From Candidatus Wallbacteria bacterium (lineage in GTDB: Bacteria > Muiribacteriota > JAQTZZ01), in the NCBI GenBank assembly GCA_028687545.1, contig JAQTZZ010000039.1, forward strand, positions 1 to 34,980: a stretch of DNA of 34,980 bases, given 5' to 3'. Shown here one piece after another: positions 13,774 through 27,469 of the stretch (within the stretch, counting starts at the first letter, position 1; each line of letters opens with the position of its first letter). Made by a program: the position numbers and the translations under genes. The notes below the pieces were generated by a model. The model did no database searches. It saw only the letters and a list, made by a program, of their open reading frames with translations, and was not told the origin of the DNA.

Positions 13774-14829
13774 TTACTCCTTTGCACCGGCTTTGATCAG
13801 CAGAGCGGTAATCTCGTTGCATTTCAACTCTTTAGCCATAAATAAAGCAGTATGCCCCCATTTGTCGCGTGCGCTGAGATCTATTCCTTTGTTTATTAAT
13901 GCGCTCACTACTTCTCGCAAATTTAATAATACTGCTTCCATTAATAATGTCCTGTTAGCAGGTCCAATTACTGAAATAGTCGCTCCTTTTCCAATCAATT
14001 TTAAGGAAATGTCATTCGCCAGTCGCCTTGATCGGTCAATGTCTATATTGTATCTTTCTTTCCTCCAGCTAGAAATATCTTTCGTGATGGATTGCTTGCT
14101 CATAGTTTTGTAAAGATTTTCTGTAGTATCAAAATAAACAAACGATCTGCTGAACGCACGTAAAGAGTATTGTATCGGTGTCTCTCCCTGGTTGTCCAAT
14201 GCATTGAAATCAGCGTTATTATCTATCAAGGCGAGAGCAAGATCGTAGCAACCATATCTTATCGCCAACATCAGCGGTGTACATCCAGAGTTATCGCGTT
14301 CATCAAGCCCAGAGCTTTTTTTTATCAGTTCTAAGGCTTTTTTATAGTCAGCATGCCTAAATTCGGGAGATAATTCCCAGTTACTCAGAAGATTGATCAG
14401 GTTTTCATTAGTCGTGGTTTCAGGGAAATAATATTGTTTAAGATTATGCAATCTGCAGAGACATTCATAGCCTGAAATTAGATGTCTGAGTATAAGAACA
14501 CCGCCAAATGAAGGACAGTCTGGGAGAAATTCCGAGATGTGTCTTCCATCTTTTCTGTCGATCTTTCGCGCAACCCGTGCTTTCCCTGATTTTGTCCCTA
14601 CGTAAAGACTTGGTTGATGACTTGACTCATCTTGTTTCCAATTGTTGTAGAAATTCAGATTCAATTGGGAAAGATTTTCCGGAAGATAACCAAGATTGTC
14701 CAGCCAGCCTTCAATGAACAAGGGCATAGTGTTTCTCTGGTCCAAGCAATCTTCACGATTGGTCGATATCTGAACTCCCCAGTAAATCAAAATTAATGTA
14801 AACATTATCCCGATTTTCTTTAAGATCAT
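13774..14829 (-). CDS. Exported or membrane-anchored ankyrin-repeat protein
   Basis: The protein has 351 residues. Its N-terminus (KKIGIMFTLILIYWGVQIST) is a signal peptide or a membrane anchor. Two ankyrin blocks are visible. Residues about 175-225 contain DNSGCTPLMLAIRYGCYDLA, then DNNADFNALDNQGETPI. Residues about 290-351 contain NRTLLMEAVLLNLREVVSAL, then DKWGHTALFMAKELKCNEIT. Residues 30-160 have no family I recognise and hold several Cys. The ATG overlaps the stop of the caspase-like gene in an ATGA, so the two are translationally coupled and probably act together. Ankyrin partners of secreted enzymes are often inhibitors or immunity proteins, but that role here is a guess. The gene is A/T-richer than its neighbours. 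Confidence 0.8.
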   Translation of the reverse strand: MILKKIGIMFTLILIYWGVQISTNREDCLDQRNTMPLFIEGWLDNLGYLPENLSQLNLNFYNNWKQDESSHQPSLYVGTKSGKARVARKIDRKDGRHISEFLPDCPSFGGVLILRHLISGYECLCRLHNLKQYYFPETTTNENLINLLSNWELSPEFRHADYKKALELIKKSSGLDERDNSGCTPLMLAIRYGCYDLALALIDNNADFNALDNQGETPIQYSLRAFSRSFVYFDTTENLYKTMSKQSITKDISSWRKERYNIDIDRSRRLANDISLKLIGKGATISVIGPANRTLLMEAVLLNLREVVSALINKGIDLSARDKWGHTALFMAKELKCNEITALLIKAGAKE

Positions 14830-17800
14830 GGGAGAACCTCAGCCATATTACCCCTGGCATTCTGATACACCTCGACCGGAACATCCGGAATCAGCGACGC
14901 TTCCAGAATAGTTGTTGGTCTTTTCAAATCAATGTGATCGAAAAATATCTTAAAGTATCCGGTCCCCAGAATCATCGGTGGGGTACCCACCCATCCGAGC
15001 AGGCATTTGGTATGAAATCCCTTTAATGAAGAGGGAGTTTTGAACCAATGGTTAATGTTTTTTTCAGCTCCCAGATAACAGCAGTTCAGAATAATCAATT
15101 TGTTGGATCGAGTCTCTTTATCCAAGGCATATATTTGATATATCTGATCAGCTTTTACCAGATAAGTTGCTGGTTTTTCAGCATCCCAATCCGATGAATT
15201 CTCATAAACATCAAATGCACTGTAATCTGACATTTCTTCTCCGTGAGCAGTGATGTATACAACATCATAGTTCTGCAATGGAATAAAGTCGGTATAGCTG
15301 ACATCGAAATTCCGATAAGTTGGAGACAGATTTACATCCACACTGTAGCATCGCTGAATTGAATCGATTGTGGACGTTACTATTTCTATTGCTCGGGAGG
15401 CATTCCATTTGAAATCCCATTTGTAAAATGCCTGAAGAGCTTTCTGCAGTCCTTCTGATTCCTGATCAATATCCCTTGTAGCCGGTAAAGCCATGATCAC
15501 TAAAGCCGGTTTTTTAGGCGCATAATGATGTTTCACTGATCCCTGTTTGCTGTGGCTATAATCCAATTCGATCTCATGAGATCCGAGCGAACTGTCAGGA
15601 TTTGTTCTGAACGCACCATATGTTTTACCGAGCAAAGCAATTATGTCCTGCGAGTATTCCTTGTTTAACGGGACGATACCTGATGAAAGGAAAATCCCTG
15701 GACCAGTTTTATTACAGATTATTTCCCGCTCTTCTATGCTGCTCTTGATTTTAACTGTGACTGAATCAGCTTTCATCCCGGAATCAGCAACCCTGATAAA
15801 CATCCGTGTGTTTTTAGTCAAGTACTTTTCAGGATTCAAGTCAGCGCATTTCTCACGTGGGAATACTTGATTGGATGCCGCATAGTTATCAAGTCGTGTT
15901 TCGTTTGTGCCATATCCCGGACCCTTCCAGATCGGCAGTTCAAGGAAAATCACTTCACCGGAATATTTCAGATTGAATTTAAGCAGGTCTTCGCCTGGAT
16001 TTTCCCGGGGAAAATTTCTTGGCATCGCCTCGTTTTGAGCCATGGGAAGGGGTGAAACAATTTCGATTATGCTATTCTTGTCTTGCGATTCGAAAACATG
16101 GCTGTCTACATCGGTTTCATCATAAATAATCTCAGTTTCATGAGTCTCTGCCGGACTGGTAAAATACATTCTGATCTGATCCGGATTTTCGACAGAATAT
16201 TGAGTAGAGAATTTTAAGGTCATCGGAAGAGGCGTATTTACTTCAGGTGGCATTCCACGGTGCGCTCCATCCCAGGGAATATACATCGGCGCAAACTTTA
16301 TTCTCTTCCCGTCTTCATTCACCAGGCTCACAGGCACCTGATTATCCCCCTCAATCCATATTTCAGATGACACTGCCCTTGCGCCGTATCCACCCGCATC
16401 AATCCTGCATTTTGCTGTCAGGATCGTGTCCTGGAAATCGCCAGTGCCACCTTTGTAAGTTGCGGTGTTTCCGGAAGGTTCAAAGACATGGCCGTCACCT
16501 TCATTGCCTGTCTCTTCCCATTTCCATTCCCTGATCGAGCCTGATGGCACCATGGCCTGGGTGTCGTCAGGGTAGACTATGGTGGCTGTGAAGGTCTTTT
16601 TCTCACCTTCGGCAATGGTGTCAATCATCGGGTCGATCTTGACGTGGAGGAAATCTTTGAGCGTGTCTTTGGCTGGAATTACATACTTGTCATAGTACCA
16701 AGCCCCTTCATGATAGTTTTCCACCACCAGGGCCAGCAATTCCTGGGCATGGCTGTAGTTTTTGAGCTTTGCTTCGCATTTCCCCTGCCCGAGTTTGGAT
16801 GAAGGTTTGTAATCCGCGGCGTTCGACAATGTGTCGAGAGTCTTGTACTTGGCAAGCGCAGTCTGATAATCGTCAACAGCATAATAGCAGTCTCCGAGGC
16901 CTAGCCAGCTGCTGCCGATTGCCCATTGCGCCAGGTAGTCAGTGCCTGCACCATAATCTAAGATGAGCTGGTCATACCATTTGATGGCTTGTGCGTAGTT
17001 TTCGCAGCCCTTTTCAATGTCTCCGTGCGCAATTTTCGCTGCTGTCAGAGTGTAGCTGTCGGCTTTCGGAAAATCGATGATTTTCTGATATTCGCCAATG
17101 GCCTGCTGCCCGTATTTGTTTCTCACCTCTTTGTTCCCTGCCAGTTCCCAATTCGCTGTTCCTATTGCCCAGAGATTTGCGCTGAGCTTGTTTTGCGAAC
17201 GCAAACGTTCATAGTCGTATTTCCCTGTATTTTCAAAAACTGATTTCAGGTAGGAGTTGGCTTTCTCATAATTCTTTTTTGCATCTGCCAGATTCCCTTC
17301 CACTTTATACGAACTGGCGATAGTGCTGTAAACAGAACCCCTGGCTTCAAGCATATCATTGCTTTGCGGGTATTCCTGGATGAATTTTTCGTAGAAGTCC
17401 GCAGCAGTCAAAAGTTCAGCCCGATTATAAATCCTCTCTCCTGTATCGGAGTAATGCTCGTCGTAAATCGCTCCCCCAAGCTGCTCGTGAGAGTATCCTA
17501 ATTTCTCCAGCGCGCCTTCATAATAAAATGCGTTGTCCGAATATTTAGCTCTTACTTTCTCATAGGCTGCGATGGCCTGCTTGTAAAGGTCTTTTTTCTG
17601 GTCTATCGTGAAATGATATGTGTATGAATATCCGGGCAGGCTGTAGCATAGGTCCCCGGCCCTGGTCAGGGATTGCACCGCATAAGTGGGGTTGACTGTC
17701 GAGAATTCCTCTTCATATTTCAGGTATTCGGAAACTGCGGCTTTGCAATAGGTCAGTTTTTTCTCATTCGACAACTGATAGATTCCGTAAAGGTTGTCCC

Positions 17801-19019
17801 GGTCGAGGCAGATTTTATAACTGACATAGTATGGTTCTGCAAGGTTGTCCCCTGGTTTGTATACCCCAAGATACTCCTCTAACCATTTGATCGCAGCGAG
17901 ATAATACTCTTCTTTTTTTTCTGGAGTGATCCCTGAAACGGACGCCAGATATTCGCAGATCCAGCCCCGGTCATAACGCGACTTGATCAGGATTTTCTCA
18001 TCCTGCACTGTATCCATAAGCTGTGTGATGTAATTGATCCCTCGCAGCAGGTTGGCTTCAGTCCTGGGCAGGCGTACCATGAAGATGTTCACAATGCCGT
18101 CATAAGAAGCACGTTTATAAGGATCAGTGGTATCTACAGCTATGCTTTCCTTGTATGAGGACAGGGCTTTTTCATAATCACCCAGGGATACATGGCAGGA
18201 TCCGATTTTACATTTGCAGCCGTTCTGGGCTGCAAATGCAGCATCAGATGCTATCACCTGCTGATAAAGGTCTATGGCATCCTGATAACGCCCTTCGCTG
18301 TAAGCATATTCTGCTTTCTGATACAATTCCTGGGCAGCAGCTCTGATTTCCGTGCAGTATCTGTTATTTAGTTTGCTGTAAAGAAAAAAGGCTTTCCGAT
18401 AATAAGCGGTCCTGCGCTCGAATTCGGTTTTATCCCCTGTTTCTACGAATTCATACAGAATTTTGGAGTGAAAATCCACTGTCAGATTTCCAAAATTATC
18501 GATCAGCTTCCGAATTGCGCTGCCATAACCTGACAGATCAATCTGTGAAGCATCTGCCTGGCTTATTAATTTCCTGATCCTGGAAATGTAGCTTGAAAGA
18601 GTCCCATTTTCATTAACTGACTCAAGCTTTTCCAGTATTGTCTCAGCTGGCACGGACAAACCGTTTTTCCGGTTCGAGTCTGAAGCTGTGAAGCATGTTT
18701 CAAAAGCCTTGAAAGAGCCATCGCAGCCTTTTGACAAATCACTTGCAATAGTTAAAGCCAGCGGGATCGAGCTTTTTTCGATTTCATCCAGGGATGCTGC
18801 ATAAATCTGTTCGAGTGCTTCCTTGAGTTCCTGCTCAGTTACCTTGCCAGAGAGATAAAAGGTAAACAGGGTGGAATCTATCAGTGAAGTGATTGAATTG
18901 AGCTGAGCTGAAATATTTGTCGAGGCTGCAGGTTCTGGTTCAGGCGGCTGAGGAGGAGTCGGGAGATCAGGATAATCCCGTCCAATGATTTGTGCCATAT
19001 TATGTTGGGGGGGGGCCAT
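14826..19019 (-). CDS. Large TPR/Ig-like protein with C-terminal caspase-like (CHAT/C25-type) peptidase domain; signal peptide out of frame
   Basis: The main open frame encodes 1397 residues from an ATG at 19019. A Pro-rich start (PTPPQPPEPEPAAS) leads to many TPRs across about 225-785 (AEYAYSEGRYQDAIDLYQQV, YYAVDDYQTALAKYKT). Next come an Ig-like segment (about 790-890), a beta segment near 1065-1120 (MFIRVADSGMKADSVTVKI, resembling V-x-D-x-D-x-N adhesin repeats), and a caspase-like domain (about 1165-1390). The last has YDVVYITAHGEE with His1259 and KLIILNCCYLGA with Cys1313/1314, followed by LLGWVGTP, the His-Cys order of clan CD peptidases. The true start is probably the GTG at 19098, whose signal peptide is one base out of frame at the C9 run (19007-19015). 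As written, translation from 19098 stops at 19000. The protein would be exported if the frame were joined. It is coupled to the ankyrin gene. Confidence 0.8.
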   Translation of the reverse strand: MAPPQHNMAQIIGRDYPDLPTPPQPPEPEPAASTNISAQLNSITSLIDSTLFTFYLSGKVTEQELKEALEQIYAASLDEIEKSSIPLALTIASDLSKGCDGSFKAFETCFTASDSNRKNGLSVPAETILEKLESVNENGTLSSYISRIRKLISQADASQIDLSGYGSAIRKLIDNFGNLTVDFHSKILYEFVETGDKTEFERRTAYYRKAFFLYSKLNNRYCTEIRAAAQELYQKAEYAYSEGRYQDAIDLYQQVIASDAAFAAQNGCKCKIGSCHVSLGDYEKALSSYKESIAVDTTDPYKRASYDGIVNIFMVRLPRTEANLLRGINYITQLMDTVQDEKILIKSRYDRGWICEYLASVSGITPEKKEEYYLAAIKWLEEYLGVYKPGDNLAEPYYVSYKICLDRDNLYGIYQLSNEKKLTYCKAAVSEYLKYEEEFSTVNPTYAVQSLTRAGDLCYSLPGYSYTYHFTIDQKKDLYKQAIAAYEKVRAKYSDNAFYYEGALEKLGYSHEQLGGAIYDEHYSDTGERIYNRAELLTAADFYEKFIQEYPQSNDMLEARGSVYSTIASSYKVEGNLADAKKNYEKANSYLKSVFENTGKYDYERLRSQNKLSANLWAIGTANWELAGNKEVRNKYGQQAIGEYQKIIDFPKADSYTLTAAKIAHGDIEKGCENYAQAIKWYDQLILDYGAGTDYLAQWAIGSSWLGLGDCYYAVDDYQTALAKYKTLDTLSNAADYKPSSKLGQGKCEAKLKNYSHAQELLALVVENYHEGAWYYDKYVIPAKDTLKDFLHVKIDPMIDTIAEGEKKTFTATIVYPDDTQAMVPSGSIREWKWEETGNEGDGHVFEPSGNTATYKGGTGDFQDTILTAKCRIDAGGYGARAVSSEIWIEGDNQVPVSLVNEDGKRIKFAPMYIPWDGAHRGMPPEVNTPLPMTLKFSTQYSVENPDQIRMYFTSPAETHETEIIYDETDVDSHVFESQDKNSIIEIVSPLPMAQNEAMPRNFPRENPGEDLLKFNLKYSGEVIFLELPIWKGPGYGTNETRLDNYAASNQVFPREKCADLNPEKYLTKNTRMFIRVADSGMKADSVTVKIKSSIEEREIICNKTGPGIFLSSGIVPLNKEYSQDIIALLGKTYGAFRTNPDSSLGSHEIELDYSHSKQGSVKHHYAPKKPALVIMALPATRDIDQESEGLQKALQAFYKWDFKWNASRAIEIVTSTIDSIQRCYSVDVNLSPTYRNFDVSYTDFIPLQNYDVVYITAHGEEMSDYSAFDVYENSSDWDAEKPATYLVKADQIYQIYALDKETRSNKLIILNCCYLGAEKNINHWFKTPSSLKGFHTKCLLGWVGTPPMILGTGYFKIFFDHIDLKRPTTILEASLIPDVPVEVYQNARGNMAEVLP

Positions 19020-19098
19020 TAAATGAATTGTCTGACCCAGCAGAAAATACTGTGCCTACTAAACTTACCATCAAAATCAATGTGAAAATTGATTTCAC
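19000..19098 (-). other. Signal-peptide leader frame of the caspase-like gene, broken at poly-C
   Basis: A GTG at 19098 follows a strong Shine-Dalgarno (GGGAGGAAGA) and encodes MKSIFTLILMVSLVGTVFSA plus 12 more residues, then reaches TAA at 19002-19000. This is a textbook signal peptide with no mature protein behind it. Immediately past nine C the other frame runs open for over 1,380 codons. Deleting one C (C8), or adding two (C11), makes N-G-P-P-Q-H-N-M-A-Q continue from the signal peptide directly into the large protein. Confidence 0.8.
19007..19015. repeat. Homopolymer of nine G (+) / C (-) at the signal-peptide junction
   Basis: Nine consecutive G on the plus strand form by far the longest G/C run I noticed in the window. 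It sits between signal peptide and mature protein of the caspase-like gene, exactly where slippage would switch export and expression on or off. Runs of this kind are the usual substrate of slipped-strand phase variation. Confidence 0.85.
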
Positions 19099-19124: not shown

Positions 19125-19152
19125 ATTTTATCCGAAGCTGTAGTTTATTCAA
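19125..19152 (-). promoter_or_regulatory. Promoter of the caspase-like/ankyrin operon
   Basis: On the minus strand TTGAAT (19152-19147), a 16-base spacer and TAAAAT (19130-19125) form a good sigma70 promoter. The start of transcription would fall near 19118, about 20 bases before the GTG at 19098. That fits the signal-peptide start far better than the ATG at 19019. Two direct copies of CAAGTTG (19150-19156 and 19167-19173) overlap and precede the -35 and could be a regulator site. Confidence 0.6.
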
Positions 19153-19249
19153 GTTGCAATTTGTTACAAGTTGAAACAAGCAACGAACAATTTCTGCATC
19201 TGGATATTTAGCTATTTTATCAGTAGAATTGATTAAAGGATTTTAACAA

Positions 19250-21675: not shown

Positions 21676-24600
21676 ATGAAATTCGTTTCCGGAAGTGTTT
21701 ATCACGGTTTCAAACTCCTGAAAAAAAAGAAGATCAGCGAAGTCAATTCCACAGGGTTGATCTTTGAGCATGAAAAATCCGGAGCCAGGCTTTCTGCGCT
21801 TTCCAATTCCGATGACAACAAGGTCTTTTCCATCTCCTTCAGAACTCCGCCATATAACGACACCGGATTGCCCCATATCCTTGAACATTCGGTGCTGTGC
21901 GGATCCAGAAAATTCAAAAGCAAGGAACCCTTCGTCGAGCTGATCAAGGGTTCGCTCTCCACCTTCGTGAATGCCATGACCTTTTCGGATAAGACCATGT
22001 ATCCTGTAGCCAGCAGGAATGAGAAGGATTTTTTCAACCTGATGGATGTGTATCTGGATGCTGTCTTATACCCCAACATCCATCTGAAACCCGAGATCCT
22101 GATGCAGGAAGGATGGCATTACGAACTCGATACGCCTGACAGCCCGCTTTCCTATAAAGGGGTAGTCTACAATGAGATGAAAGGAGCTTATTCATCTCCT
22201 GAACGCATCCTGAGTAAGGAGATCCAGAAATCCCTGTTCCCGGACAATGCCTACGGTTTCGATTCCGGCGGTGACCCTGAGGCCATTCCCACTCTCACGC
22301 TGGCTGAATTCCGTAGGTTCCACCGCACCTATTACCACCCCTCCAACAGTTACATTTTCCTCTATGGAAATGGAGATCTTGACAAACAGCTCGGATTCAT
22401 CAATGACAATTATCTGAAAGATTATGACCGTATCAGCCTGGATTCCAGGATTTCCATGCAGAAAGAGTTCGGATCGATTGAGATTATCAGGGAGTATCCT
22501 GTGCCCCAGTCTGCTGATACTGCAGGCAAAGCTTTCCTCAGCCTGAACTGGCTGGTAGGGAAACCCCTATCCTCGGAATTTTACATCGCCTTTGACATCC
22601 TGCGCTCCATGCTGCTCGACACTCCTGGAGCACCGCTGAAAGAAGCGCTGATCAAATCCGGGCTGGGCAAGGATGTGATGGGGCAGTTCGAAGAGGGTCT
22701 GCTGCAGAACTATTTCAGCGTGATCGTGAAATACTCAGACGAACACAGAAAAGACGAATTCAGAAAGATTGTGAACGACACCCTGAAAAAAATGGTGAAA
22801 GACGGCATAGACCGTGAACTGGTGGCAGCCTGCATCAACAGGAAGGAATTCGAGCTGCGCGAAGCTGAAGGCCACGGCCTTCCCAAAGGTCTTCATTATA
22901 ATTTCATGATGATGGACAGCTGGCTGCATGAAGGAGACCCCTTTGCCAATCTTTCCTTTTCCAGGAATTTCAGGAAAATCAGGAAAGCTTTGACCAGTGA
23001 TTATTTTGAAAAACTGATCAAAAAGTATCTGCTCTCTTCCAGACACAGCACACTCCTGGTCATGAAGCCTGAAAAAGGCCTGCTGGAGAAAAATCAGGCA
23101 GCACTTTCTGCTGCGCTTACGCAGCATAAGGAAACCCTGTCCAGAATCGACCTGGAAAAGCTCACAGCCGAAACCGCCAGGCTCAAGCAGCTGCAGTCTA
23201 CACCCGATGAAGCTGGAGCGCTTGAAACAATCCCGCTTTTGTCTCTTTCTGACATTGACAGGAAGATTACTGAAATTCCACTTACTGTGATTGACCTGAA
23301 TTCGGTCCAGGTCTTGAAACATGGAATTTTCACAAGCGGCATCGCCTATCTGAATCTTTATTTCGATTCCTCGGTTGTCAGAGAGGAGCAGATCCCATAT
23401 CTTGGCCTGCTGTCAGGACTTCTGACCAAGATCAGCACAAAGTCCAATCATTACAGCCAGCTGACAAAAAAAATAAACACCCATACCGGAGGGGTTTCCT
23501 TCTTTCCGGAATCTTATCCTGAGCGGAACACTGATTCCATCTACTTCCCCAAGTTCCTGGTGAAAGCAAAAGCACTGGTGGCGGAATTTCCGGAACTTCT
23601 CAAAATCCTCGGCGAAATCATGCTGGAAAGCGATTTTTCTGATGGAGACAGGCTGCTGGAGGTGATCCGGGAAATCAAATCCAGGCTGGAAATGAGAATC
23701 CCGATGGAGGGACATCTTTATTCCTGGAGACGGGTTCGCTCTTATTATTCACAATACGGAAAGTATGAGGAACTGGTGAAAGGAATTTCTTTTTACCAGT
23801 TCATTGCTGATCTCGAGAAGAATTTCGAAAAGAAGTCAGACAGTCTGAAAAAAATCTTGAGCGGGATCTTCAGGACTCTGTTCTCAAGACAGGCACTGGT
23901 CGCATCCATCACATCCGACGAATCCGACTGCGGCAATCTGATTGCAGAGCTGTCAGGTCTCTGTGAAAAACTTCCAGACACGAGTGCAGCAAAACAGAAT
24001 TACAGATTCGATCTGACTGTGGAAAACGAAGGGTTGATGACCCAGAGTCAGGTGCAGTTTGTGGCCAAAGGTTATAATTACAGACAGCTCGGACTTGATT
24101 ATTCAGGTAACCTTGCAGTGCTGAAAACCATCGTCGGCCTTGACCATCTCTGGAACAAGGTCCGCGTCCAGGGTGGCGCATACGGAGCTCATATCATAGT
24201 GGGCAGGGAAGGAAATCTCAGTTTCGGCAGCTACAGGGATCCCAATCTGTCGGAAACTCTGAAAATCTACGATGAAACCGGGGATTATCTGCGCGGATTC
24301 AATCCGGACCGCAGGGAGATGACCAAGTACATCATAGGCACGATCGGGCATCTGGACAGCCAGATCACTCCGTCCGCAAAAGCTGATGCCTCTGACCGGA
24401 ACTACCTCTGCCGGGTGACTAACGAGGATCTGCAGCGGGAGCGTGATGAGATCCTGTCTACTGGAATGGAAGATATCCGGAAAATGGCCGGGGTCTTTGA
24501 CAAACTTACAGGGAAAAAATGCCTGTGCGTACTTGGCAATGAGAGCAGGATCGAAAAAGAAGGCAATCTGTTCGGGAAAAAATCTCGAGTGTTCGAATAG
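21676..24600 (+). CDS. M16C metallopeptidase (PreP-like), first of tandem pair
   Basis: The 974-residue protein starts at an ATG preceded by TTGGAGG. The inverted zinc motif HxxEH is LPHILEHSVLCGS (His67, Glu70, His71), with the third ligand Glu167 in GVVYNEMKGAYSSPER. The C-terminal half has RVQGGAYGAH, the substrate-positioning Arg/Tyr region of the presequence-protease group. Size and order (catalytic M16, inactive M16, peptidase_M16C_assoc, two more M16 repeats) match PreP/insulysin-like clamshell enzymes that degrade short unfolded peptides. No signal peptide is seen, so it is probably cytoplasmic. The next gene is a paralogue starting 2 bases after this stop. Confidence 0.92.
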   Translation: MKFVSGSVYHGFKLLKKKKISEVNSTGLIFEHEKSGARLSALSNSDDNKVFSISFRTPPYNDTGLPHILEHSVLCGSRKFKSKEPFVELIKGSLSTFVNAMTFSDKTMYPVASRNEKDFFNLMDVYLDAVLYPNIHLKPEILMQEGWHYELDTPDSPLSYKGVVYNEMKGAYSSPERILSKEIQKSLFPDNAYGFDSGGDPEAIPTLTLAEFRRFHRTYYHPSNSYIFLYGNGDLDKQLGFINDNYLKDYDRISLDSRISMQKEFGSIEIIREYPVPQSADTAGKAFLSLNWLVGKPLSSEFYIAFDILRSMLLDTPGAPLKEALIKSGLGKDVMGQFEEGLLQNYFSVIVKYSDEHRKDEFRKIVNDTLKKMVKDGIDRELVAACINRKEFELREAEGHGLPKGLHYNFMMMDSWLHEGDPFANLSFSRNFRKIRKALTSDYFEKLIKKYLLSSRHSTLLVMKPEKGLLEKNQAALSAALTQHKETLSRIDLEKLTAETARLKQLQSTPDEAGALETIPLLSLSDIDRKITEIPLTVIDLNSVQVLKHGIFTSGIAYLNLYFDSSVVREEQIPYLGLLSGLLTKISTKSNHYSQLTKKINTHTGGVSFFPESYPERNTDSIYFPKFLVKAKALVAEFPELLKILGEIMLESDFSDGDRLLEVIREIKSRLEMRIPMEGHLYSWRRVRSYYSQYGKYEELVKGISFYQFIADLEKNFEKKSDSLKKILSGIFRTLFSRQALVASITSDESDCGNLIAELSGLCEKLPDTSAAKQNYRFDLTVENEGLMTQSQVQFVAKGYNYRQLGLDYSGNLAVLKTIVGLDHLWNKVRVQGGAYGAHIIVGREGNLSFGSYRDPNLSETLKIYDETGDYLRGFNPDRREMTKYIIGTIGHLDSQITPSAKADASDRNYLCRVTNEDLQRERDEILSTGMEDIRKMAGVFDKLTGKKCLCVLGNESRIEKEGNLFGKKSRVFE

Positions 24601-24601
24601 G

Positions 24602-27469
24602 GTGAGACACGGGTTCAGGCTGCTGCGCGAGCAGCGGATCAGCTCAGTCGGTTCAGACTGCCATTTTTTCAGGCATGAAAAAAGCGGAGCTGATCTCCTT
24701 TTTCTCGATAATCCTGACGACAACCGGGTTTTTTCCATCGCGTTCCGCACACCCCCTCCGGACAACTCAGGACTCCCGCATGTAATTGAGCATTGCGTGC
24801 TCTGCGGATCCAGAAAATATCCGCTGAAGGACCCCTTCATCGAGCTCGACAAAGGCTCGCTCTGCACTTTTCTGAATGCCATGACCATGCCGGACTCCAC
24901 CGTGTTTCCAGTGGCCAGCAGGAACAGGGCGGATATTTTCAACCTGATGGATGTTTACCTGGATGCGGTTTTTTACCCGAAGCTGCTGCAGGACCCGAGA
25001 ATCCTGAAACAGGAAGGGATCAGGCTGCAGCCTGGCAAGCAGAGGCGCTTCATCCCAAATGGTGTGGTTTACAACGAGATGCGCGGATTTTTTGCCGCTC
25101 CCGAAGCACTGCTGCTTTCCCGCGCGCAGAGATCGCTGTTCCCGGACAACGAGTATGGCTGTGAATCCGGCGGAGACCCGGATCTGATGCTTGACCTCAC
25201 TCATGAGAAGGTCGTTTCCTTTCACCGCAGATATTATCATCCTTCGAACTGCCTGATTTTTCTATATGGAAGATGGGACCTGGACGAAGTAACAGCTTAC
25301 CTGGACAGGGAATACCTTAGTGGATTCGAACTTTCACTCCCTGCCTCCCGGATCGGACTGCAGCCGGGACTTAGTAAGCCTCTGGATCTGGAGCTTTCCT
25401 ATCCGGTTTCAGGCAGAGTGGCTGGAAAAACCTGCTACAGCCTGAATTTTGCCACCGGTCTCTCTACTGACCTGGAATTCCAATATCTGCTGGAGATTCT
25501 GAAATACGCCCTGTTCGACAAGCCGGGTGCTGTCCTCAGGGAGAAACTGGCCGGAATGGGCAAGGACTCCTTTACTGTCCTCTCAAGGCTGAACCTCCAG
25601 CCCGTCTTTTCGATAGTAGTCAGGGACGCACCTGCCGGAAAAAAGACTGAGTTCAGGGATTTGATTTTCAACACCTTAGCGGATGTGCAGCGGGACGGGA
25701 TTGATCCGCAGATCTTAAAAGCCGGACTGAATCGTCTGGAATTTGCGGTCAGGGAAGGAGAAGGAGGCGACGTCCAGCGCGGGATAAACTGCAACTTTTT
25801 TGCACTCGGGAACTGGATTCACGGTTGCGACCCTTTCCTGTCGCTGGATTTCGAGGCTATCCTCAGGAGAATTTCGATGGATACTGCTACAATCTCGACC
25901 ATGATCAGGAATTGCTTTCTGGAAAACCAACATCAGTCACTTTTCACCCTGATTCCTGAATCAGGTCTGCTCAGAAAGAGGGAGCAGGAGCTCAGAATGC
26001 GCCTGAGAGCCATGGGGAAGGCTGCCACAACCCAGGAATGGAAGAAGCAGCTTGAAGCTGACTTGGATTTCCGCGAATGGCAGGCCATACCCGAAAATGC
26101 GGATAAAGCCTGTCTCCCACTGCTTGAACTGTCTGAAATCGACAGGAACCAGGAGCGGATCCTGCAGAATCTTTCAAGGCATGATGAGGTCATAGTTCTT
26201 CAACTGCCGCAGCAGACGTCAGGAATCTGCTATCTTGACCTTTATTTCGATGTGTCGGGGTTGAATTGCGACGAAATCCCTTATCTTGGTCTGCTTGCGA
26301 CACTGCTTGGCAGGTTGAGCACGAGGAAACGCAGTTTTTCAGAGCTGTCCACTCTGACAGATCTTTATACCGGTGGAATCGAGTTCGACGTTCAGACTTT
26401 TTCGGAATCAGATTCTGTTTTCCATCCCAGGCTCTGTGTGAGAGCTAAAGCTCTAGCCAGGGAGCTGCCCAGGCTTTTCGAGCTTTTGACAGAGCTGATT
26501 ACTGAACAGGTCTTTTTTGAAGCAGGGAGACTGCTGGAACTTTATTATGAACTGAAATGCGGAATCGAGGAAGACATCGTTTCCCAGGGTGAGGATTTCG
26601 CGAGGCGCAGGCTGCTTTCTTATTTTTCGGGAGTGGAAAGGTATGAGGAATTACTTTCAGGACTGTCTTTTTACAGTTTTCTCCGCAAAATCGAAGGGAA
26701 AATGAAATCTTCAGGCAAAAAAGTTGCGATAGAACTGGAAAGGGTCTACAGACTTGTTTTCAACAGGCTGCACCTGGCCTGTTTCACAGCATCTGCCGAG
26801 GAATCAGGGAATTTCGAGCTGCATTTTGAGAGATTCAGAAAATCCATTCCGCAGATCAAATCCCAGCGGGCTTCGTTTGATTCCAGTGATGACCTGAAAA
26901 ACGAGGGTCTGGCTGTAGAGCGGGAAGTCCAGAGCATCGCGCAGGGCTATAATTTCAACCGGCTGGGATGCTCATACTCCGGGAAAATGGCGGTGCTGGA
27001 ATCGATCGTGACTCTGGATTATCTCTGGGAAAAAGCCCGCGGGAGCGGTGCTTACGGGGTTTACCTGTCGCTTGAGCGAAACGGCAATGCCTGTTTTGTA
27101 TCCCATTCCGATCCGAATCTGGCTGAAACCCTGCAGATGTTCAGGGAGACAGGAAAATATCTGGACAATTTCAGACCGTCAGAGCGGGAAATGCGGAAAT
27201 ACATCATCGGCACGATCGGAAAATTCGACGAGTATCTCACTCCAGCCCAGAAAGGCGAGCGGGCTGCCTGCGATTTCCTGAGCGGAAGAAGCCACGAGGA
27301 TCTGCAGCGGGAACGCGATGAAATATTAAGCACAACGCCTTCTGATATCCGGAGTTTCGCAGGCATGATCGACGAACTGACAAAAAAAAACTGTCTCTGT
27401 GTTCTGGGCAGTGCGCCTAAGATCAGGAAAAGCCGCAGCCTGTTCAGTTCAGTTTCCAGATTGATTTAA
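24602..27469 (+). CDS. M16C metallopeptidase (PreP-like), second of tandem pair
   Basis: The protein has 955 residues from a GTG at 24602, chosen because alignment with the first copy begins there (MRHGFRLLREQRIS against YHGFKLLKKKKIS). The frame is open upstream inside the first gene, but that part has no counterpart. The zinc site is intact: LPHVIEHCVLCGS (His60, Glu63, His64) and GVVYNEMRG (Glu159). The C-terminal site reads ARGSGAYGVY, so the Arg-x-x-Gly-Gly of the first copy is altered. The two copies are clearly diverged rather than recently duplicated. The GTG 2 bases after the previous stop suggests coupled translation. A strong terminator follows at 27493. Confidence 0.9.
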   Translation: MRHGFRLLREQRISSVGSDCHFFRHEKSGADLLFLDNPDDNRVFSIAFRTPPPDNSGLPHVIEHCVLCGSRKYPLKDPFIELDKGSLCTFLNAMTMPDSTVFPVASRNRADIFNLMDVYLDAVFYPKLLQDPRILKQEGIRLQPGKQRRFIPNGVVYNEMRGFFAAPEALLLSRAQRSLFPDNEYGCESGGDPDLMLDLTHEKVVSFHRRYYHPSNCLIFLYGRWDLDEVTAYLDREYLSGFELSLPASRIGLQPGLSKPLDLELSYPVSGRVAGKTCYSLNFATGLSTDLEFQYLLEILKYALFDKPGAVLREKLAGMGKDSFTVLSRLNLQPVFSIVVRDAPAGKKTEFRDLIFNTLADVQRDGIDPQILKAGLNRLEFAVREGEGGDVQRGINCNFFALGNWIHGCDPFLSLDFEAILRRISMDTATISTMIRNCFLENQHQSLFTLIPESGLLRKREQELRMRLRAMGKAATTQEWKKQLEADLDFREWQAIPENADKACLPLLELSEIDRNQERILQNLSRHDEVIVLQLPQQTSGICYLDLYFDVSGLNCDEIPYLGLLATLLGRLSTRKRSFSELSTLTDLYTGGIEFDVQTFSESDSVFHPRLCVRAKALARELPRLFELLTELITEQVFFEAGRLLELYYELKCGIEEDIVSQGEDFARRRLLSYFSGVERYEELLSGLSFYSFLRKIEGKMKSSGKKVAIELERVYRLVFNRLHLACFTASAEESGNFELHFERFRKSIPQIKSQRASFDSSDDLKNEGLAVEREVQSIAQGYNFNRLGCSYSGKMAVLESIVTLDYLWEKARGSGAYGVYLSLERNGNACFVSHSDPNLAETLQMFRETGKYLDNFRPSEREMRKYIIGTIGKFDEYLTPAQKGERAACDFLSGRSHEDLQRERDEILSTTPSDIRSFAGMIDELTKKNCLCVLGSAPKIRKSRSLFSSVSRLI

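Follow-up and report, generated by a model that had tools for sequence, protein, structure and literature searches.

A run of nine cytosines lies between an intact signal peptide and a large caspase-like open reading frame in the window, i.e., the whole 34,980-nucleotide stretch analysed here, which represents contig C39 in an assembly of 108 contigs and 4.54 Mb. This run is probably a slippage-prone, phase-matched joint that connects a 5′ cassette to the body of a polymorphic TPR/caspase-like effector, the window copy being in the +1, OFF state. Since the same junction recurs in eleven relatives, the run has the appearance of an inherited on/off switch and recombination joint rather than of a random error. 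In the following, labels such as C18, C22, C39, and C397 designate contigs and the family genes they carry; C7 to C12, when applied to the tract, give the number of C's. The elements of the locus are listed from 5′ to 3′ in the direction of transcription.

19150..19169, minus strand: TTGTAACAAATTGCAACTTG, a pair of TTGTAAC-like heptamers with a 10-bp step, a candidate response-regulator operator
19125..19152, minus strand: promoter-like TTGAAT-N16-TAAAAT, read from the sequence; the same layout is present 5′ of paralogues C18 and C22
19102..19108, minus strand: Shine-Dalgarno sequence GGGAGGA
19000..19098, minus strand: leader open reading frame of 32 aa, comprising signal peptide, C9, and stop
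14826..19019, minus strand: big open reading frame of 1,397 codons with proline-rich linker, TPR region, Ig-like middle, and caspase/CHAT-like C-terminus
19007..19015, minus strand: C9 tract, exactly nine C; the in-frame length is C8, so one C is extra
18994..19015, minus strand: seam element C9-AACATAATATGGC, matched exactly in paralogue C18 (there with C8)
19000..19002, minus strand: TAA stop of the +1 state
18996..18998, minus strand: ATG in phase with the big open reading frame, one base after the +1 stop TAA
14829..15632, minus strand: C-terminal domain with clan CD histidine (TAHGEE) and cysteine (LNCCYLG); AF2 pLDDT 77
13774..14829, minus strand: partner gene encoding an N-terminal hydrophobic segment and ankyrin repeats; its start overlaps the stop of the big open reading frame

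The initial annotation of this DNA had described a Shine-Dalgarno sequence and a signal peptide beginning at GTG 19098 that run into nine C and then a stop at 19000, followed by a neighboring frame open for about 1,390 codons. Re-reading of the sequence agrees with this layout (leader product on the minus strand: MKSIFTLILMVSLVGTVFSAGSDNSFNGPPPT), and the open frame measures 1,397 codons, from 19019 to 14826. The further proposal that removing one C or adding two would join the two frames is borne out by simulation of different tract lengths: C8 and C11 allow read-through into the big frame, C9 leads to a stop at codon 33, C12 likewise stops at once, and C7 and C10 terminate at about codons 72–73. 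The homopolymer is thus positioned such that a change of a single C toggles between full-length and truncated product, as is characteristic of simple-sequence contingency loci. The body of the window gene is uninterrupted, with catalytic histidine and cysteine intact. The ATG at 18998–18996 had not been recorded in the initial annotation.

Runs of at least eight C are rare in the 4.54 Mb genome, which contains only 11 distinct ones, three of them at the same site in paralogues. Among the five full-length paralogues encoded in this genome (C18, C41, C15, C22, and C16), C18 and C41 harbor an in-frame C8 at this site (at C18:32982 and C41:34020) and remain open for 1,465 and 1,511 codons, respectively; no C run is found in C15, C22, or C16. 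In C18 and the window gene, the stretch TTTAATGG-Cn-AACATAATATGGC is identical. The nearest relative compared, the metagenome-assembled genome Candidatus Wallbacteria bacterium STB_16 (G001), which represents another genus within the family, contains nine tract-bearing members with seven (C6, C281, C258b, C113, C199, C374, and C379), eight (C397), or nine (C369) C. A search with the seam pattern C7–C9 followed by AWNNNNWTATG (CCCCCCCAWNNNNWTATG) returned 12 matches in two genomes, which coincide exactly with the 12 family members; 38 further genomes from the phylum and the reversed controls gave no match, nor did a scan of viral contigs for the seam. When contigs were searched with the single window protein, no match was obtained, and a search with the family alignment matched only STB_16. 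In all, the homopolymer recurs, at the same place between signal peptide and body, in 11 further genes, of which the window's own genome has two and STB_16 nine. Four full-length family members lack it altogether, and ten of the 12 tract copies are in frame.

The tract length that preserves the frame is set solely by the preceding codon, being seven after GTT or ACA, eight after GGC or AGC, and nine after ACC. Measured against this rule, only the window gene and STB_16 C397 deviate, each by one extra C (+1). C397 carries C8 where C7 would be in frame, and the cassettes of C6 and C374, 91–95% identical to that of C397, have C7; this length difference, like that between the window gene (C9) and C18 (C8), is one between paralogues, not between alleles of one locus. 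The Pro-Pro pair at the seam is encoded as CCC-CCC in 12/12 members, compared with 0/20 of the other Pro-Pro pairs in the family (Fisher 4e-9, a value that overstates independence because the 12 members are related). CCC accounts for 14–20% of proline codons, and when the window gene or C18 is compared with the remaining members, four-fold degenerate codons agree in only ~23–37% of cases. Judged from these comparisons of non-independent members, the tract appears to be kept as a DNA feature beyond the needs of the protein, as expected of a contingency locus.

The tract also marks a place at which sequences have been exchanged. In STB_16, one type of promoter/signal-peptide cassette is shared by C281, C258b, and C199 (94–96% over 80 nt) and another by C6, C374, and C397 (89–95%), while one type of body is shared by C6 and C281 (93% over the first 60 nt and 93% over 1,443 bp) and another by C199, C374, C397, and C113 (82–95%). 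Identity changes to background at the tract: in ungapped comparisons across it, C281 drops from 94–96% to 33–37% against C258b and C199, and C6 climbs from 50% to 93% against C281. All four combinations of the two cassettes with the two bodies are present (A-I, A-III, B-I, and B-III), the four-gamete pattern that classically indicates recombination; since the copies resemble each other without being identical, chimeric assembly of a single repeat is not the simple explanation. In the window's genome the seam signal is weaker and older, C18 being similar to C39 from its upstream region through the tract and slightly beyond, and to C15 thereafter. By this evidence, the C run in STB_16 qualifies as a recombination seam between exchangeable promoter/signal-peptide cassettes and bodies, and this crossover-seam role of the tract adds to what the initial annotation had proposed.

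In the mechanism we favor, the C run would join an exchangeable 5′ cassette, which supplies promoter, start, and signal peptide, to the body of an effector that is secreted. As the joint would code for Pro-Pro-(Gln/His) in the form of an unbroken C7–C9, any cassette and any body could be joined in phase. Slipped-strand mispairing would add or remove one C and thereby turn the protein OFF or ON. At the window copy, with C9 instead of C8, ribosomes would make the 32-aa signal peptide and then stop, and export would be restored once one C is lost or two are gained. We infer reversible slippage, its rate, and selection for switching. The contingency locus envisaged in the initial annotation is partly supported: the conserved tract, the frame geometry, and the two +1 copies make it the best fit. 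The predominance of the ON state, the presence of MutS and MutL genes, and the shortness of the tracts (7–9 C) weigh against frequent switching, and the absence of the tract from four full-length members also counts against this reading. Ten in-frame copies, where about four of 12 would be expected under random phase, suggest that ON is favored or switching is rare, and rarity is also suggested by the mismatch-repair genes; absence of mismatch repair is ruled out as a cause, since both MutS and MutL are encoded. Conservation of the tract could also serve recombination rather than slippage. The STB_16 contigs inspected for coverage are mostly at ~3x, so the extra C of C397 could be an error.

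With a tract that is conserved, mostly in frame, and found twice in the +1 state, it is less likely that everything comes down to one slip in the assembly or to a programmed +1 shift that is fixed. A plain inactivating frameshift, by which one paralogue lately lost its frame at a mutation-prone run that is otherwise kept, e.g., as a seam, would do without any selected switch. We regard this as improbable though worth serious consideration: it accommodates the ten in-frame copies and the mismatch-repair genes, and seam recombination alone could keep the element; however, use as a seam does not obviously demand CCC at the two codons in diverged genomes, the reading frame is otherwise undamaged, and C397 represents a second, independent +1 copy. 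Alternatively, the true tract might be C8 and the gene simply ON, the ninth C being a consensus or assembly error. Homopolymers are error-prone, the window stems from a 108-contig assembly, and most relatives are in frame, but two C8 tracts in the same assembly read in frame, indicating that C runs are not generally over-counted. Such an error, which is distinctly unlikely in our estimation, would moreover leave the conserved seam and the slippage geometry in place.

Very little weight is given to the idea that the fusion is produced from the C9 gene as it stands, by programmed +1 ribosomal frameshifting at CCC-C or by transcriptional slippage. CCC-C is a shift-prone proline context and the shift needed is indeed +1, but ten of the 12 copies need no shift, which means that frameshifting is not a conserved requirement of the family; poly-C is not known as the usual run for transcriptional slippage. 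Pairing of the C run, as an RNA element, with the G-rich ribosome-binding site is close to dismissed: strong pairing is predicted in three of seven members tested, but none in the other four, the window copy included (P=0.01), so that as a family-wide explanation it is largely refuted. A variant of the switch has to be considered as well. In the +1 state of 12/12 members, the leader terminates 4–16 nt past the tract and no more than 8 nt from a body-frame ATG. This ATG is located at a distance of 8 nt from the end of the tract in all 12 tract-bearing members, within TRATATG in five. With the leader stop beside a body-frame ATG, a signal-less form made by restart is conceivable, and the joint might be a dual-purpose device, a phase-matched crossover site and a slippage switch whose +1 state relocates the protein by ATG restart to a signal-less cytoplasmic form. 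This we consider a rather unlikely extension of the simple OFF state.

Poly-G/C tracts of seven or more vary in the gonococcus (PMC1097732), and 5′ tracts have been proposed as general inactivation switches (PMC2831843). The poly-C joint resembles contingency loci of Neisseria, Campylobacter, and Bordetella, as well as the 5′ tract of L. monocytogenes inlA, in being a short 5′ homopolymer whose out-of-frame state truncates the product just after it. It differs in that the tract is common to a paralogous effector family of an uncultured group and is also a recombination seam, and in that the switching is putative. A related combination of features is seen in vaa of Mycoplasma hominis, where a 5′ homopolymer with an 8-base ON state occurs together with exchangeable downstream cassettes (PMC524362). 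Yet vaa is a single adhesin gene with a poly-A tract and exchange at the 3′ end, whereas here many genes swap promoter/signal-peptide cassettes at poly-C. No paper on phase variation in Wallbacteria was found in the literature searched. Our analysis suggests that, in an uncultured candidate group, a single short DNA joint may combine contingency-style switching with the shuffling of cassettes and would thereby govern the export of polymorphic caspase-like proteins; if this is confirmed, phase variation would reach into environmental candidate phyla, and polymorphic effector systems would gain a mechanism of N-terminal exchange.

The window protein is rich in TPRs, and its conserved middle is Ig-like by eye only, no profile matching it. 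The best PDB fold matches of the C-terminal domain are SAVED-CHAT and caspases (Foldseek 8tl0: E 1.9e-4, prob 1.00, TM-score only 0.42), consistent with a caspase-like fold, and across the family the catalytic cysteine is present in 14/14 members and the histidine is nearly invariant. On the strength of the modeled fold and the dyad, the C-terminus is classified as caspase/CHAT-like, clan CD. It has the His-Cys dyad and caspase-like fold in common with CHAT/caspase peptidases but differs from them in that it stayed below the cut-off of every Pfam and NCBIfam model and in belonging to a protein that is exported rather than to an immunity effector of the cytoplasm. Directly downstream of each family gene examined lies a small gene whose product has a signal peptide or a membrane segment, of the ankyrin type for the window, C15, and C41, a small membrane protein for C18, and PepSY-like for C16 (subthreshold Pfam match) and C22 (by eye). 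Standalone C-terminal cassettes occur at C181 and L130 in STB_16. Taken together, the family has the anatomy of polymorphic toxin systems, for which caspase-like C-terminal domains have already been described (PMC3482391): a signal peptide for export, a long repeat body that is conserved, a variable C-terminal enzyme (caspase-like included), an adjacent partner that varies, and standalone cassettes. In contrast to those systems, exchange here also occurs on the N-terminal side and involves a homopolymer joint, and the toxin and immunity roles are putative. By this analogy, the caspase-like protein may have effector activity, with the partner as a putative inhibitor or immunity protein.

Several further observations concern the family loci. 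Orphan C-terminal fragments form arrays with partner-like genes 3′ of family genes in STB_16 (L061/L128 on C181, L130, and L129). The tract-bearing C369 (L064 / L138) has a C-terminus unrelated to the caspase-like domain, with a Cys/His pattern that is transglutaminase-like by eye and no Pfam match. On C22 of the window's own genome (L132, 1645–2412), a 255-aa open reading frame after the partner gene repeats a portion of the TPR region found in the family gene upstream and is likely a remnant of duplication.

The paired TTGTAAC heptamers are common to the 5′ cassettes of C39 and C22. Across the genome, the repeat pattern has 17 matches, versus 2 for the reversed control, and recurs at ~16 other sites (L097–L113) with a 10-bp step, i.e., OmpR-like spacing. 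About a dozen other genes lie downstream of such repeats, many of them apparent exported hydrolases (by eye papain-like and clostripain-like peptidases and amylase-like proteins). From their distribution, the sites look like an exported-hydrolase regulon, and the association supports the view that the protein is normally exported. At L102, L105, and L108, the repeats are followed after ~60–130 nt by a near-identical, transcribed-looking leader of ~110 nt (GAGGTACCCCCCTCAGTTC...CCTGTAGTCCACTTATACTCTAGTCCTCT, then a hairpin and T run), which stands behind the same promoter each time and has no obvious gene; these leaders are possibly a small RNA family, and Rfam contained no family matching them or the window. 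A G8 run at L033 (1502–1509) directly precedes the ATG of a signal-peptide-like protein, so that changes in its length would alter the spacing of the ribosome-binding site. Elsewhere in the window (21676–27469), tandem genes encode PreP-like M16C metallopeptidases of 974 and 1008 aa.
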